Assembly: GCA_900450595.1 (NCBI GenBank)
Contig: UGGS01000001.1
Coordinates: forward strand, 1,798,001 to 1,862,000
Source: [Flavobacterium] thermophilum
GTDB lineage: Bacteria > Bacillota > Bacilli > Bacillales > Anoxybacillaceae
Reading direction: 5' to 3'
DNA length: 64,000 bases
The translations under genes and the position numbers were made by a program. This document shows positions 29,768-35,010 of the stretch, in pieces; position 1 is the stretch's first letter; each line of letters opens with the position of its first letter. The notes below the pieces were generated by a model. It saw nothing but the letters and a program-made list of their open reading frames with translations, was not told where the DNA came from and did no database searches.

Positions 29768-30537
29768 TCTGTCCCCTCCTCCTGCTTCGCTTCTTGCTTC
29801 GTCCCGATGCGAGCCGCCCAATCGCCCAAAACGCGGCGCTGCACGGCGATCAGCTGTTCAATGCCGATGTGCGCCGCCTCAAGCAATTCATCGAGCTCGG
29901 CGCGAGAAAAAGTCGCTTCTTCCCCGGTCCCTTGAATTTCAACAAACTGGCCGGATCCGGTCATGACGACGTTCATATCGACTTTTGCCCGCGCGTCTTC
30001 ATCGTAATTCAAATCGAGCACAACGCCATGCTCCGGATCGATGCCAACGGACGTAGCGGCAAGAAAATCGCGGATTGGAAGCGCCTCGAGCTTCCCTTCG
30101 TCAACGAACTTGGAAAGCGCCAGCACGAGCGCCACGTAGCCGCCGGTGATCGAGGCGGTGCGCGTTCCGCCGTCCGCCTGAATGACGTCGCAATCGATCC
30201 AAACCGTTCGTTCGCCAAGCCGCTCCAACTCAACGACCGAGCGGAGCGCGCGGCCGATCAGGCGTTGAATTTCCATCGTCCTCCCCGACACTTTCCCTTT
30301 GCTTGCCTCCCTCGCATTCCGCTGCTCTGTCGCCCGCGGCAGCATCCCATATTCGGCGGTGATCCATCCTTTTCCGCCGCCGCGCATAAACGGCGGCACT
30401 TTTTCTTCCACCGTCGCCGTGCAAATCACTTTCGTGTCGCCGATTTCAATCAACACGGACCCTTCGGCATGTTTCACATAATGCGGCTGTATATGTACAG
30501 GGCGCAGCTCACGGTTATGTCGTCCGTCTGCTCTCAT
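29764..30537 (-). CDS. rph: Ribonuclease PH
   Basis: RNase PH is a phosphorolytic exonuclease that trims tRNA 3' ends. Motifs: the phosphate-binding [14 protein letters not shown] (about 65-78), GRALRSVV, and the conserved [18 protein letters not shown] (near 115-132). The 257-residue protein has a charged tail ([11 protein letters not shown]) that is slightly longer than the catalytic fold. ATG at 30537 follows AAGGAGGAAGAG. It heads a three-gene set with 4-base overlaps and is separated from gerM by a terminator and a mobile element. Confidence 0.97.
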
Positions 30538-30626
30538 TCACTCTTCCTCCTTTTTCCTTCCCGTTTGCCAGCAGGAGCCGGTCGGTCCTGCCTCCTTCCT
30601 TGCATCACGACTCCGTGCCGCCGTTG

Positions 30627-30667
30627 CCAAAAAACAAAGAGGCGGAGCACGCTTCCACCTCTTTGTT
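30627..30667 (-). terminator. Original terminator of gerM, now displaced
   Basis: Stem AACAAAGAGG / CCTCTTTGTT (30633-30667, extended by a few pairs) is followed by TTTTTTGG on the minus strand. It lies 255 bases after the gerM stop because the palindromic element at 30700-30921 intervenes. Confidence 0.85.
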
Positions 30668-30699
30668 ATACCATAACAGCCTATTCGTTTCCAGCTTGG

Positions 30700-30921
30700 G
30701 TGAACACCCCACCACCTACGCTTCGCTTAGAGGCGGGGGCTTCAAGCGACTTGTGCGTGTTCGCCGAACGGTAAGCCACACACAAGAACCCTTTACGCTT
30801 TCCTTCGTTCCGAAGGGGTCCGTTCTAACCTTATTTTATCCTATTCGTTGGCTAACGCCAACCGACATTCATCTCCCACTTTCACTTTGCTTAGAAGCGG
30901 GAGACTTCTTTCGGAAAGATG
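30700..30921 (-). mobile_element. Palindrome-ended non-autonomous element (IS200/IS605-like), copy 1
   Basis: This 222-bp non-coding element starts, on the minus strand, directly after the TTTAA that contains the gerM stop codon, and ends in GTTCAC. It has subterminal palindromes at both ends: TCTCCCGCTT / AAGTGGGAGA on the left and CCCCGCCTC / GGTGGTGGGG on the right. It has no terminal inverted repeat and no target duplication. A second copy of about 80% identity lies after gerE at 33566-33804, in the same orientation and with the same boundaries. These traits fit the single-strand IS200/IS605 family and its palindrome-associated non-autonomous derivatives. The assignment is by architecture, not by a database match. 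Confidence 0.75.
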
Positions 30922-31998
30922 TTAAAACGCCCCGGTATTGACGTTTTGTGGGCGGGCGACCGGTTTTGTGAGCGGTTTGCCGTCTTCCGTAACAAGATCG
31001 GCTTTGCCGTTCACCGTAATCGTGACGCTCTCAACGCCGCTTTGCTCGGTGAGCGACAACACAAGCGAGTTCAAGACGACGTCAGAAATCACATTTTTCT
31101 TGTTGCTGCCAAAAATGCCTTCGTTAAAATTGAGCGTGACTTGGCCATCTTCGTATTTTGGCTTGTCAAGCAGCTTGGCGTCCGGCTGGAAGACGCCGAC
31201 AAGCCCGCTGCCATGTTCCGGCCCTTGAATAAGTTCATGGACCGCCGCCGCGATATCATCTTTCTCTTGGTTGGAAACACGTCTTGTCACAGGGACATAA
31301 TACGTCGTTTCTCCCTGTTGGGCAACAAAATACACGGTGACGGGATGCGTATTCGTAATGTCCGGCACACCGCCCGCCTCCATGTTGATGCCGTCGGCGC
31401 GGCTCACCCCGTCTTGAATCGGCGTTTTATTGACCGGCATCACCTCTTGGTCATAACCGTTAATGCGGATTTTGACGCGCTTAATGTTGTCAAACTGCGT
31501 CAACGTCCACACAATGGCTTGCAAAATCCGCTTTTCGTCTTCCGGTTTGTATTGCTTGAATTCCGGTGAAAAATCGGCGATCAACGTCCCGTCTTTTTCA
31601 AGTTTGGTGCCAAGCACGGTTGTCCCTGCCGGAATGACGGCGCGGAAACCGTTCGGCAACATATTCGACACCGGGCCGTCTTCAACCAAATACTCAAGCA
31701 CTTGTTTCGCAACAGCCTGCGTTTTTGGCAACTCAACCGTTTGCGGCACGACATATCCGTTTTTGTCAATCAGGTAAAGCTCTCGCTTGACCGTCTCGGT
31801 CGCCTTCGCTTCCTCTTTGGCCCCCTCTTTCCCTTTCGTTGCCTCCTCGAGCGCCTGGCCGTCTTTTACATAGCTCGTGTCTTGCGGCGGATCAATTTCC
31901 TTCACTGCTTCATCTTGGCCAAACAAGCCGCAGCCGCCGAGCAGCAAAAGCGAAGCGAGCACCGGCGCCGTCCATCTATGAACCGTCCGTTTGCCCAT
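30922..31998 (-). CDS. gerM: Spore germination lipoprotein GerM
   Basis: GerM is needed for spore germination and cortex-related functions and is made in the mother cell. The 358-residue protein starts with a lipoprotein signal (lipobox LLGGC, Cys near residue 24), then a charged linker to about 70, and two GerMN domains (about 85-205 and 225-345). Each shows the family pattern of an L/VPVTR-type entry and a V-x-I-x-VNG-type strand end (KIRINGYDQ; TITVNGKAD). ATG follows GTAGGAGGGA. The last codons run straight into a mobile element. Confidence 0.93.
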   Translation of the reverse strand: MGKRTVHRWTAPVLASLLLLGGCGLFGQDEAVKEIDPPQDTSYVKDGQALEEATKGKEGAKEEAKATETVKRELYLIDKNGYVVPQTVELPKTQAVAKQVLEYLVEDGPVSNMLPNGFRAVIPAGTTVLGTKLEKDGTLIADFSPEFKQYKPEDEKRILQAIVWTLTQFDNIKRVKIRINGYDQEVMPVNKTPIQDGVSRADGINMEAGGVPDITNTHPVTVYFVAQQGETTYYVPVTRRVSNQEKDDIAAAVHELIQGPEHGSGLVGVFQPDAKLLDKPKYEDGQVTLNFNEGIFGSNKKNVISDVVLNSLVLSLTEQSGVESVTITVNGKADLVTEDGKPLTKPVARPQNVNTGAF

Positions 31999-32061
31999 TG
32001 ACGTTCCCTCCTACTCGTGGTTTGTACTACTATGTATACGAGCCGCTGTCCAAAATAGAAT

Positions 32062-32101
32062 AAAAAAATCCTTTAGCGTCTATGCGCTAAAGGATTTTTT
32101 T
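32062..32101 (-). terminator. Terminator of ysmB-racE
   Basis: Near-perfect inverted repeat AAAAATCCTTTAGCG / CGCTAAAGGATTTTT with T-runs on both sides, directly after the racE stop. Confidence 0.95.
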
Positions 32102-32103
32102 GC

Positions 32104-32898
32104 CTACAGGCGAATCGATTCCACCGTGCCGATCGGTCTGCCAAACCACTTTCTTGAAATCTTTTCAAAAAGCTCTTTCGGACCGGTCGTAAAAAACAAA
32201 TGCTCCGGCTCGCGCTGGCCCGTATAAAGAAGGTGGCTGTGATGCAAAATGGCGCTCACTTCGCGGGCCGTTTCACCGCCCGAGCAAATCAGTTTCACTT
32301 TTTTGCCCATGTAGGCCCGGATCAGCGGGGCAAGCAGCGGATAATGCGTACAGCCTAAAATAAGCACGTCAATCGGCAGCGGGCGCAGCGGAGCAAGCGA
32401 CTCGGCGACGACCGCCTTCGCTTTCTCCCCTTCAAAATCGCCGCTTTCGACCAGAGGGACAAACTTCGGGCACGCCAAGCTTTCGACATGGACGTGCGGA
32501 TTGATCGATTGGAGCGCCTTTTCGTACGCCTTGCTTCTCACCGTGCCGATCGTGCCGATCACGCCAATATGCCCATTTTTTGTCGCCTTCAAGGCGGCGC
32601 GGGCGCCGGGATGAACGACGCCGAGCACCGGAATGTCAAGCCGCTCCCGCACTTCATCGAGCGCGACCGCGGTTGCCGTGTTGCAGGCAATGACAAGCAT
32701 TTTCAACGGATATTGCCGCAAGTAGTGAATCATCTGCCATGTAAATCGGCGAATTTCTTCAACCGGGCGCGGCCCGTACGGACAGCGGGCGGTGTCGCCA
32801 AGGTAAATGATCTGTTCCTTTGGCAGCTGCCGCATAATTTCTTTGGCGACGGTTAAGCCGCCGACTCCTGAATCAATGACACCAATTGCTCTTTCCAA
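32104..32898 (-). CDS. racE: Glutamate racemase
   Basis: RacE makes D-glutamate for peptidoglycan. The 264-residue protein contains [16 protein letters not shown] (5-20), the two catalytic cysteines in [11 protein letters not shown] (near 74) and [11 protein letters not shown] (near 185), and the usual DTARCPYG. The TTG start follows GAGGCGATC. It is 9 bases after ysmB and closed by a strong terminator, so ysmB-racE form one unit as in B. subtilis. The name murI is also used. Confidence 0.97.
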
Positions 32899-32907
32899 GT
32901 GATCGCC

Positions 32908-33351
32908 TCATTCTTTCGTCATTTCTTGATGCAATTTGCGCAAACAACGCTCAAAAACGACAATTTCTTCATCCGAAAAGTTTTCCAGCACTTGGGCCAA
33001 ATCGCGCTGGCGTTTTTCAATCACTTCCTCAATGATGCGCTCGCCTTTTTCGAGCAGGTGAATGCGGACGACGCGCCGATCATGTTCATCACGCACTCGG
33101 GCGACGAGACCGTTTCGCTCCATGCGATCGACCAAGTCGGTCGTCGTGCTGCACGCCAAATACATTTTGTTCGATAACTCGCCAACCGTCAAGTCCCCTT
33201 CTTCAAGCAGCCATTGCAACGCGACAAACTGCGGAGGCGTGATGGGGTAGTTCGTTAAAATTTCGCGGCCGCGCTGTTTTAAGTTGGCGGCGATATAGCG
33301 AAGCAATTTTTCCAACTCGGCAACCGTTTTTTCGTTCATCGCAGACGGCAT
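32908..33351 (-). CDS. ysmB: MarR-family transcription regulator YsmB
   Basis: A 147-residue winged-helix protein with MarR layout: N-terminal helices for dimerisation, recognition helix in LACSTTTDLVDRMERNGLV (about 70-88), and the wing RVRDEHDRRVVRIHLLEKG. The target and ligand are unknown. Its co-transcription with racE is conserved with B. subtilis but unexplained. ATG at 33351 follows GGGGAGATTG. Confidence 0.9.
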   Translation of the reverse strand: MPSAMNEKTVAELEKLLRYIAANLKQRGREILTNYPITPPQFVALQWLLEEGDLTVGELSNKMYLACSTTTDLVDRMERNGLVARVRDEHDRRVVRIHLLEKGERIIEEVIEKRQRDLAQVLENFSDEEIVVFERCLRKLHQEMTKE

Positions 33352-33480
33352 ACAATCTCCCCTTGATCATTTTCGCGGCCTGGCCCCAAAACAACGTGCC
33401 TCAGCCAACGGCCATTCTATTTTTCATTTTACAATACCGGGGGACATAATCAATACAAAATATAGAACGCCGCTGCAGAC

Positions 33481-33515
33481 AAAAGGCCAGACAGGCGGCA
33501 AAGCCTCGTCCGGCC
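33481..33515 (-). terminator. Probable original terminator of gerE, now displaced
   Basis: Stem GGCCGGAC / GTCTGGCC (one mismatch) followed by TTTTG on the minus strand lies about 290 bases after gerE, on the far side of the palindromic element. The rest of the 33.36-33.56 kb gap shows only an additional GCCGGC inverted repeat. Confidence 0.6.
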
Positions 33516-33565
33516 GCAAAGGAACATAACAGCCGGCCACCCGGAAAGGGAAAAGCCGGCATTGT

Positions 33566-33804
33566 GTGAACTACCCACCACCTACGCTTCGCTTAGAGGT
33601 GGGGGCTTCAAGCGACTTGTGTGTGTTCGCTGAACGGTAAGCCACACACAAGAACCCTTTACGCTTCCCTTCGTTCCGAAGGTGTCCGTTCTAGCCATAT
33701 TCTATCCTATTCGTTGGCTAACGCCAACCGAAATTCATCTCCCACTTTCACTGGTGCTGGCGCACCTTCACGTTTAGAAGTAGGAGACTTCTTTCGGAGG
33801 GAAG
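33566..33804 (-). mobile_element. Palindrome-ended non-autonomous element (IS200/IS605-like), copy 2
   Basis: This 239-bp element begins directly after the TTTAA containing the gerE stop codon and ends in GTTCAC, like copy 1. The internal blocks, such as GTCGCTTGAAGCCCCC and GGTTGGCGTTAGCCAACG, are nearly identical in both copies. Copy 2 carries an extra block of about 20 bases with the small palindrome GGTGCTGGCGCACC between its left-end arms. It has no open frame and is mobilised, if at all, by a transposase in trans. Confidence 0.75.
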
Positions 33805-34029
33805 TTAAAGTTTCAGTTCGCCCATTCGAAGCAATTCAATCACAGCTTGCGAGCGCCCCTTGACCCCAAGCTTTTGCATCGCATTCGAAATATGGTTGCG
33901 AACGGTTTTTTCACTGATGAACAGTTCTTTGGCGATTTCCTTCGTCGTCTTATCTTGCACGAGCAATTCGAAGACTTCTTTTTCTCTCTTTGTCAGCAGC
34001 GGCTTCGATTGAAACGATTGATCCTTCAA
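33805..34029 (-). CDS. gerE: Spore germination/coat regulator GerE
   Basis: GerE is the last mother-cell regulator of sporulation and tunes sigma-K-dependent coat genes. The 74-residue protein is a LuxR-type helix-turn-helix alone: LTKREKEVFELLVQDKTTKE (about 12-31), then IAKELFISEKTVRNHISNAMQKLGV. The length equals B. subtilis GerE. The TTG start is 9 bases after AAGGAGGG. A sigma-K-type promoter lies upstream, and an inverted repeat covers part of the ribosome binding site. Confidence 0.97.
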   Translation of the reverse strand: MKDQSFQSKPLLTKREKEVFELLVQDKTTKEIAKELFISEKTVRNHISNAMQKLGVKGRSQAVIELLRMGELKL

Positions 34030-34042
34030 CGGTGGTAACCCT

Positions 34043-34109
34043 CCTTGCTCTCAATGGGCCCGAACTGCCGGATGGGTATTTCCTCACCATATCGTATGTG
34101 AGAGCAAGG
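34043..34109 (-). repeat. Inverted repeat over the gerE ribosome binding site
   Basis: A perfect 11-bp inverted repeat (CCTTGCTCTCA at 34099-34109 and TGAGAGCAAGG at 34043-34053, minus-strand reading) overlaps the AAGGAGG site. The distal arm lies upstream of the sigma-K -10 box, so the hairpin can form only in longer transcripts. Confidence 0.6.
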
Positions 34110-34117
34110 GCGGCGGT
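34090..34117 (-). promoter_or_regulatory. Sigma-K-type promoter of gerE
   Basis: On the minus strand the -10 CATACGATA (34090-34098) fits CATANNNTA, and the -35 AC (34116-34117) is 17 bases upstream. gerE is sigma-K-dependent in B. subtilis. Confidence 0.7.
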
Positions 34118-34201
34118 GACGAAATTTTGCTTATCTAATAGAAAAATAGGTCTTTTTTTCGCCTCCCCACCTGATCAAAGACAAGGGGGCTGGGCAAGCG
34201 C

Positions 34202-34234
34202 AAAATCCCCTCCATGGCTGGCCACGGAGGGGAT
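34202..34234 (-). terminator. Terminator of sdhCAB
   Basis: Stem ATCCCCTCC / GGAGGGGAT lies about 15 bases after the sdhB stop, with a short TTTT tract on the minus strand. Confidence 0.8.
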
Positions 34235-34248
34235 GAGAGGTCCAACTG

Positions 34249-35010
34249 TTACGCTTCGTCGCTGCCAAAGAAATCGCGGAACATTTGAATCGTCGTTTCG
34301 CGGTTTAACGCCGCGATCGATGTCGTCAACGGAATGCCCTTCGGGCACGATTGCACGCAGTTTTGCGAGTTGCCGCAGTTGGCCAGTCCGCCGTCGCCCA
34401 TAATCGCCCGCAGCCGCTCAGCTTTATGCATCGCTCCGGTCGGATGGGCGTTAAACAGCCGCACCTGCGACAGCGGCGCCGGGCCGATAAAGTTCGACTT
34501 GCTGTTGACGTTCGGGCACGCTTCAAGACAGACCCCGCACGTCATGCATTTTGACAGCTCGTACGCCCATTGCCGCTTCCGCTCTGGCATGCGCGGACCC
34601 GGACCCAAGTCGTACGTTCCGTCGATTGGAATCCATGCTTTGACGCGTTTTAGCGCATCAAACATCCGGCTCCGGTCGATGACCAAGTCGCGGATGACAG
34701 GGAATGTGCGCATCGGCTCCAGGCGGATCGGCTGCTCGAGTTTGTCAATGAGCGCGGCGCACGCCTGGCGCGGCTTTCCGTTAATGACCATCGAACAGGC
34801 CCCGCACACTTCTTCCAGACAGTTCATTTCCCAAGCGACCGGCGTCGTTTTTTCCCCTTTGGCGTTGACTGGATTGCGGCGAATTTCCATGAGCGCCGAA
34901 ATGACGTTCATGTTCGGGCGGTACGGAATGACAAACTCCTCTTCATATGGAGCGGAATCCGGACGATCTTGGCGCGTGATGATGAACCGAACCGTTTTGT
35001 TTTCGCTCAT
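34249..35010 (-). CDS. sdhB: Succinate dehydrogenase iron-sulfur subunit
   Basis: SdhB carries electrons from the flavoprotein to the membrane anchor. The [2Fe-2S] cysteines are in CLEEVCGACSM and the later RQAC (about 65-85). The [4Fe-4S] and [3Fe-4S] ligands are in CMTCGVCLEACP (near 155-166) and GNSQNCVQSCPKGIP (near 218-230). The protein has 253 residues. It starts 1 base after sdhA and is followed by a terminator. Confidence 0.98.
   Translation of the reverse strand: MSENKTVRFIITRQDRPDSAPYEEEFVIPYRPNMNVISALMEIRRNPVNAKGEKTTPVAWEMNCLEEVCGACSMVINGKPRQACAALIDKLEQPIRLEPMRTFPVIRDLVIDRSRMFDALKRVKAWIPIDGTYDLGPGPRMPERKRQWAYELSKCMTCGVCLEACPNVNSKSNFIGPAPLSQVRLFNAHPTGAMHKAERLRAIMGDGGLANCGNSQNCVQSCPKGIPLTTSIAALNRETTIQMFRDFFGSDEA

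Follow-up and report, generated by a model that had tools for sequence, protein, structure and literature searches.

Putative IS200/IS605-type elements without genes behind TTTAA, and their frequent position at stop codons in Geobacillus

Two short elements that lie directly behind the stop codons of the spore genes gerM and gerE in a heat-loving Geobacillus are best explained as TTTAA-targeted, gene-less PATEs that are likely to be mobilised in trans by TnpA and that persist at stop codons because they are harmless there, a reading to which we give a probability of about 0.8. Under this explanation an element would insert immediately 3' of TTTAA, the Y1 transposase (TnpA) would probably come in trans from tnpA-tnpB elements whose ends are the same, and harmful insertions would be lost while copies at stop codons would tend to persist, TTTAA at the 3' end of a gene being a rare harmless spot. 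It draws on a fixed target, insertion without duplication at gerM, relatives that are empty, ends common to larger elements and three branches of copies at gerM. IS605-family elements and PATEs, short elements with IS605-type ends, have reportedly been described in a Geobacillus stearothermophilus genome by Meers et al. in 2023. The window (the whole stretch of DNA analysed) is 64,000 nucleotides long, and the features that matter here, including ends matched to the tnpA-tnpB element L381 of genome G110, are as follows.

30700..30921, minus strand: element E1, 222 nt, base 1 right after the gerM stop, ending in GTTCAC
30922..30926, minus strand: TTTAA target of E1, its TAA being the gerM stop codon
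30922..31998, minus strand: gerM (Pfam Germane, PF10646)
30700..30826, minus strand: predicted folded core and right-end hairpin of E1, the same as in E2
33566..33804, minus strand: element E2, 239 nt, base 1 right after the gerE stop, ending in GTTCAC
33805..33809, minus strand: TTTAA target of E2, its TAA being the gerE stop codon
33805..34029, minus strand: gerE (Pfam PF00196)
33726..33804, minus strand: left end of E2 with hairpin, 77/79 identical to the left end of L381
33566..33609, minus strand: right end of E2 with hairpin, 44/44 identical to the right end of L381
33566..33692, minus strand: predicted folded core and right-end hairpin of E2, 127 nt, with pseudoknot GAACGG/CCGTTC and three core helices
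33699..33727, minus strand: TTGGCG-17-TAGAAT, a predicted promoter-like pair immediately upstream of the E2 core

E1 is preceded by ...GCGTTTTAA and E2 by ...GAAACTTTAA. The first-pass annotation of this DNA had placed both elements correctly in coordinates, orientation, ends and stop-codon junctions, and its naming of gerM and gerE is borne out by the Pfam matches. It was also right that the two are related, but its figure of about 80% identity was slightly low, as 203 of 222 aligned bases (91.4%) are identical, or 84.9% with the 17-nt gap included.

The same genome contains at least 24 matches resembling E1 and E2 (E<=1e-5; 40 of 69 candidates scored), and at least 115 places were found in 13 of 14 genomes of the genus (E<=1e-20; up to 40 candidates per genome scored). 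When these genus places and same-genome matches were reduced to 97 distinct left junctions, by merging identical 55-nt flanks in sister genomes and omitting unresolvable left ends, 83 had exactly TTTAA. For this count a junction could be shifted by as much as 6 nt to where TTTAAC matched best, and the set contains one tnpA-tnpB element and a small number of partial copies. A chance repeat is excluded by these three counts. The left flanks of other copies are thus not random, and the earlier proposal of a short fixed target, TTTAA, with insertion right behind it, holds.

Empty orthologous sites exist at both loci. The gerM site is occupied in 4 of the 14 genomes and the gerE site in 2, and a host-conserved feature of gerM or gerE, which would have undone the earlier proposal, is ruled out by the majority of relatives that carry no element at either locus. 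Eight of the ten relatives without the gerM element read TTTTAA directly joined to the flank, so that comparison of TTTTAA-flank with TTTTAA-element-flank reveals insertion without target duplication. At gerE the twelve relatives without the element have CTATAA (11) or TTATAA (1) and none has TTTAA, from which it follows either that the target arose in the lineage of G000 and G006 or that a near-match was used. On the element tree, which is drawn without support values, the copies at gerM from G000/G006, G008 and G012 form three separate branches, and G008 itself nests among species that lack the element.

The TTTAA target, the lack of duplication and the ends held in common with tnpA-tnpB elements agree with the IS200/IS605-type identity first suggested for E1 and E2, which we take, on these features, to be non-autonomous members of that group (PATEs). 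Hairpins are predicted at the left and right ends across 45 aligned copies. No transposase gene is present in either element, 222 or 239 nt being too short for a tnpA of 132 aa. The tnpA-tnpB elements L090 and, in genome G110, L381 and L382 have the same ends and the same target as the short elements, following TTTTAA or ATTTAA, but in the short elements tnpA and tnpB are missing and the interior is replaced by the core. L090, which is in the same genome and carries Y1_Tnp (PF01797), matches the element ends over 62 nt on the left and 36 nt on the right; its own end is GTATGTCAC, and the matched right ends of its type finish GTATGTCAC or GCATGTCAC, unlike the GTAGTTCAC of the short elements. 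An L090-like tnpA was missing from 8 of the 14 genomes (E<=1e-20), among them G006 with its 22 element places, so the helper is often absent today, which speaks against the preferred explanation. A MITE of a TIR transposon was also considered and rejected, since the ends, CATCTTTCCG and ...GTTCAC, are not inverted repeats and there is no duplication at gerM.

According to passages in two papers, the PATEs of Haloquadratum walsbyi (PMC3119063) and Halanaerobium (PMC7290912) are short, have no transposase gene, contain subterminal IS605-like palindromes, cause no target duplication and are presumed to be mobilised in trans. E1 and E2 resemble the PATEs of these passages in being short, in their palindromic ends, in the lack of duplication and in the presumed mobilisation in trans. 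They differ from them, as far as those passages describe PATEs, in the conserved covarying core of ~86 nt, and our treatment differs from the same accounts in that copies at stop codons were counted against a background. Neither blastn nor covariance models found the core in those tnpA-tnpB elements that have the same ends.

The core is a conserved predicted fold with a covarying pseudoknot (GAACGG/CCGTTC), other families of the order have it too, and it is probably an RNA. In its helices G.U occupies 54 cells compared with 37 for A.C, which weakly favours a top-strand RNA over DNA. The promoter score reaches at least 8/12 hexamer matches in 28 of 45 copies as against ~10% of shuffles, an excess that is not independent evidence because the copies are related. 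Searches of Rfam 15 gave no match to the core at E<=1 in positions 30000-34500 of the window and none at E<=5 in five core loci, where the neighbouring FMN riboswitch was found. Searches of open-licence PMC papers turned up no mention of the core, nor of such elements inserting at stop codons. With its covariation, its lack of an Rfam 15 match and its occurrence in further families of the order, the core makes a concrete candidate RNA of a mobile element, one with a searchable partner protein.

What such an RNA might do can be considered with TnpB in mind. It may be an omega-RNA-type scaffold that stems from tnpB elements and serves a TnpB in trans, with the right-end flank as guide and TTTAA as TAM, an idea that we regard as unlikely. 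The core lies next to the right end, just as a TnpB reRNA does, it has the covarying fold with its pseudoknot, and a hairpin with a GGAAC loop was seen by eye in several tnpB 3' ends as well; moreover, passages in PMC11043419 give TTTAA as the TAM and TTCAC as the ending motif of the tested archaeal SisTnpB, the same pair as the element's target and end. As set against that source, core and TnpB omega-RNA/reRNA are therefore alike in position, motifs and hairpin-rich folding, but they differ in that no tnpB is attached to the core and that without the right end covariance models match in neither direction. Model R3, built from tnpB 3' ends without the right end, matched none of 26 core loci at E<=10 (of 8 tnpB loci it recovers 4 at E<1e-8, and two of those are near its training set), and the core model R1 reached no significant score, at best 0.8 and 4.8 bits, on the 3' ends of two tnpB genes from which the right end had been cut. 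A further model, R2, which lacks the right end and is effectively sequence plus helix A only, gave no tnpB matches and is weak evidence. None of 90 copies follows a same-strand tnpB in the fetched flank; a TnpB-like match was present there in two, both on the opposite strand and 303 and 714 nt away, and among 39 further or overlapping loci only one (L411) had a TnpB match, of 27% and again on the opposite strand. Genome G001 has cores, and an L090-like TnpB was not found in it. A broader form of the idea, quite unlikely in our estimation, would make the element a transposable guide-RNA gene, in which core, right-end hairpin and ~16-20 nt of flank constitute a new class of scaffold for a TnpB-like nuclease acting in trans and cutting behind TTTAA; the host stop codon would then be both landing site and TAM, and empty sister alleles, once cut, would regain the element at that same stop codon.

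The position of the elements relative to genes was examined for the 90 copies in which both ends could be resolved; of these, 89 are 210-250 nt long. Genes were called throughout with a purpose-built dicodon-scored caller that was correct on gerM and gerE (a length-only caller missed gerM), and the background leaves out TTTAA sites no more than 900 nt from a chunk end as well as the element junctions themselves. A stop codon lies at the junction of 27/90 copies as against 20/1634 ordinary TTTAA sites, so that the earlier view of stop codons as landing sites is borne out, and 9/90 copies are in gene interiors compared with 1369/1634 ordinary sites; these counts held when the gene caller was set to four different thresholds. 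Treating a site shared between species as one brought the 90 copies down to 81, and at non-disruptive sites alone stops still account for 21/72 copies versus 20/265 background sites (p = 5e-6). Positions at a stop, or no more than 60 nt from the end of a gene on the same strand, account for 34/72 versus 36/265 (p = 6e-9), while positions no more than 100 nt from a gene start are rarer among the copies (15/72 versus 101/265, p = 0.008). Gene interiors are thus avoided, and gene starts more weakly. Stops are no commoner relative to TTTAA 1-60 nt behind genes among the copies (21:13) than in the background (20:16, p = 0.63). Stop codons therefore receive elements by virtue of their location at the 3' ends of genes, and a fixed target combined with the loss of harmful insertions can explain the pattern; the first-pass suggestion of a self-limiting strategy that spares host genes, if meant as an evolved one, is not supported. 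About one third of copies are at stops by way of gene 3' ends with no special preference for the stop itself, and, as TTTAA is common to target and stops, it is predictable that elements find refuge at stop codons, where insertion is easy to monitor.

The mirror position, immediately ahead of the 3' end of a gene on the other strand, holds 3/72 copies versus 22/265 background sites; it should be equally harmless, yet it is not enriched, which hints at an orientation bias of insertion or at damage done by the promoter-like site that points outward. Orientation fits the lagging-strand template in 39/57 copies (p = 0.0075; terminus assumed, orthologous copies not merged), mainly through G006 (18:4), G004 (8:3) and G007 (6:3), with no preference in G012 (4:4), G005 (2:3) or G010 (1:1). 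This modest preference would fit, as indirect evidence, TnpA-driven insertion into the lagging-strand template. The stop fraction is 6/22 in near-identical, young copies and 21/68 in older ones, no difference and no sign of filtering over time, and on this equality selection after insertion is not separable from bias at insertion. Active targeting, in which TnpA would prefer single-stranded TTTAA where transcription ends and the bias would be present at insertion, is in keeping with a stop fraction that does not rise with age and with 3' ends enriched on the same strand only, but we consider it decidedly improbable, as exact stops are not favoured over sites just behind genes and the replication-strand preference and the promoter-like site can also give strand asymmetry. 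That the elements are domesticated 3'-UTR features (e.g. terminators or RNA stabilisers) kept for the benefit of the host gene is very improbable indeed, for although they recur behind gerM in several genomes and fold strongly (z -4.0 as RNA), the gerM copies belong to different element subfamilies, 10 of 14 genomes have none there, and near-identical copies lie behind unrelated genes or between genes. The Geobacillus phage phiOH2 carries a 99.6% copy after TTTTAA that starts one base past the annotated end of the CDS BAN62876.1, an independent annotation that agrees with placement behind a gene end.

The two gene-less palindromic elements E1 and E2 stand behind gerM and gerE, whose identities were confirmed by Pfam, and reading the coordinates in the sequence bore out the observation that both start directly after a stop codon and finish in GTTCAC:

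30921 down to 30700, minus strand: E1, first base directly after the gerM TAA, last bases GTTCAC
33804 down to 33566, minus strand: E2, first base directly after the gerE TAA, last bases GTTCAC
30700-30826 and 33566-33692, minus strand: folded core with a covarying pseudoknot, present also in further families of the order

E1 and E2 are identical at 203 of 222 aligned bases, the left-end hairpin of E2 carrying 17 extra bases. Five of the 59 genes called in the window end in TTTAA, and an element is present at two of these. Their ends are common to tnpA-tnpB elements, which makes them palindrome-associated transposable elements (PATEs). One such element in the same genome, L090, encodes a Y1 TnpA of 132 aa and a TnpB of 369 aa, and the ends flanking these genes match E1 over the left 62 nt (93.5%) and over 36 nt of the right end. 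Genome G110 holds two more, L381 and L382, inserted after TTTTAA and ATTTAA, with left ends 97.5% (79 nt) and 93% (90 nt) identical to that of E2 and right ends both identical to it over 44 nt. E1 and E2 have at least 24 matches in their own genome, and at least 115 element places were found at E<=1e-20 in 13 of the 14 genomes of the genus, Geobacillus. The proposed fixed target held, exact TTTAA preceding the element at 83 of the 97 left junctions whose flanks differ, most others being one base off. A 99.6% copy lies in Geobacillus phage phiOH2 (AB823818.1, 2001-2239), after TTTTAA and directly behind an annotated CDS, and this phage is a possible vehicle between strains.

An important consideration is whether stop codons themselves are favoured. 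Using a purpose-built dicodon gene caller, 90 copies with both ends were compared with 1634 ordinary TTTAA sites in 944 kb: the copies lay at an in-frame stop in 27 cases, inside called genes in 9 and elsewhere in 54, against 20, 1369 and 245 for the background. Among non-disruptive sites stops were clearly in excess, also with shared sites merged (21/72 versus 20/265, p = 5e-6), and this was stable across four gene-caller thresholds. The first-pass interpretation is partly supported: it stands as to IS200/IS605-type ends, TTTAA target and stop excess, but that excess disappears when the comparison is with TTTAA sites lying 1-60 nt past the end of a gene on the same strand (21:13 versus 20:16, p = 0.63, on small numbers). 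Since stops and the 60 nt that follow a gene, taken together, are nevertheless enriched (34/72 copies, 36/265 background), the elements gather at gene 3' ends, where the TAA stop is simply a common TTTAA. For 15/72 copies and 101/265 background sites a gene start was no more than 100 nt away. The pattern most likely reflects loss of harmful insertions combined with a strand preference; less probably, sites are already targeted at insertion. The stop share is the same in near-identical (6/22) and older copies (21/68), and no enrichment is seen at mirror-image sites ahead of the 3' end of a gene on the other strand (3/72 copies, 22/265 background). With the origin taken from dnaA and the terminus assumed opposite, the lagging-strand-template orientation was seen in 39 of 57 copies from six genomes, chiefly owing to G006 (18/22), with 4/8 in G012 and 2/5 in G005.

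Empty orthologous sites, the check suggested at first pass, were found at both genes. The gerM site is occupied in 4 of 14 genomes (G000, which holds the window, G006, G008 and G012) and lacks an element in ten, reading TTTTAA in eight and TTTTAG in two, with flanks that run on without duplication; in one of the ten, G004, a segment of 44 nt lying some 150 nt further downstream shows a weak similarity to the right end (79.5%) and may be a remnant of an older element. In a tree taken without branch support values the gerM copies are split over three branches: G000 and G006 share one, the G008 copy groups with further copies from G008 and G013, and the G012 copy pairs with a second one from its own genome. 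The most plausible reading is that elements inserted three times at exactly this position. Given a preference for gene 3' ends, such recurrence would be likely by chance alone, with about 70-75 TTTAA stops estimated per genome by extrapolation from 20 in 944 kb. The gerE site is occupied in two genomes and empty in twelve, and since the latter read CTATAA (11) or TTATAA (1), either the target arose in the lineage of G000 and G006 or the element accepted an imperfect one; the sequence fits both.

The elements represent a known type; their conserved interior, a core of about 86 nt between the ends, could not be placed in a known family, and Rfam 15 gave no match. It was not found in the tnpA-tnpB elements compared (L090, L381 and L382), and many copies have a predicted promoter-like pair immediately ahead of it. 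Across 50 distinct copies the paired share of helix cells is 93.4%; it is 89.7% in a wider set including other families of the order (n=27). Against shuffles that do not preserve the relatedness of the copies, the 50 copies had both-side changes in 19 cells (6.6 in shuffles; 0/500 reaching 19) and at 11 pairs (5.6; 5/500 reaching 11), and the wider set in 28 cells (9.7; 0/500). With the wider set slid by -2, both-side changes are seen at 14 pairs and in 23 cells, near the unshifted values of 13 and 28, but the share of cells that pair is then only 44.9%. A pseudoknot, GAACGG/CCGTTC, absent from every model used for aligning, is paired in 96.8% of its cells, and three of its six pairs show changes on both sides. 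Searches free of the right end gave matches outside the family at E<=1e-5 in G305 (two) and G051 (one), and a weak match in G170. In L308 (1501-1571 and 1629-1761) a weak, divergent match to the core (E = 0.012) directly precedes an FMN riboswitch (RF00050).

For SisTnpB a TAM of TTTAA and an element end TTCAC are reported (PMC11043419), both identical here, where the core likewise adjoins the right end. By this analogy the core might at most be called guide-RNA-like. A model of tnpB 3' ends without the right end recovered 4 of 8 tnpB loci, of which two are close to the sequences it was trained on, and matched 0 of 26 core loci; the covariance model of the core had no convincing hit in two tnpB 3' ends truncated ahead of the right end, though it does find the divergent core in G305 (E = 3e-14). 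No tnpB runs into a core in the flanks of 90 copies, two of which have a tnpB, both on the opposite strand (L005 at 303 nt, L066 at 714 nt).

An L090-like tnpA, whole or broken, occurs in 6 of the 14 genus genomes searched. None was found in G006 despite its 22 element places, many of them near-identical copies, and a burst may have been followed there by loss of the helper. The genome of the window also has a TnpB family in high copy, whose right end in L043 and L049 likewise finishes GGGGGTAGTTCAC, and, on a different element, a further short palindrome, CCCCCGCCT...AGGCGGGGG, present in three copies (L020, L021, L024) whose flanks are similar.
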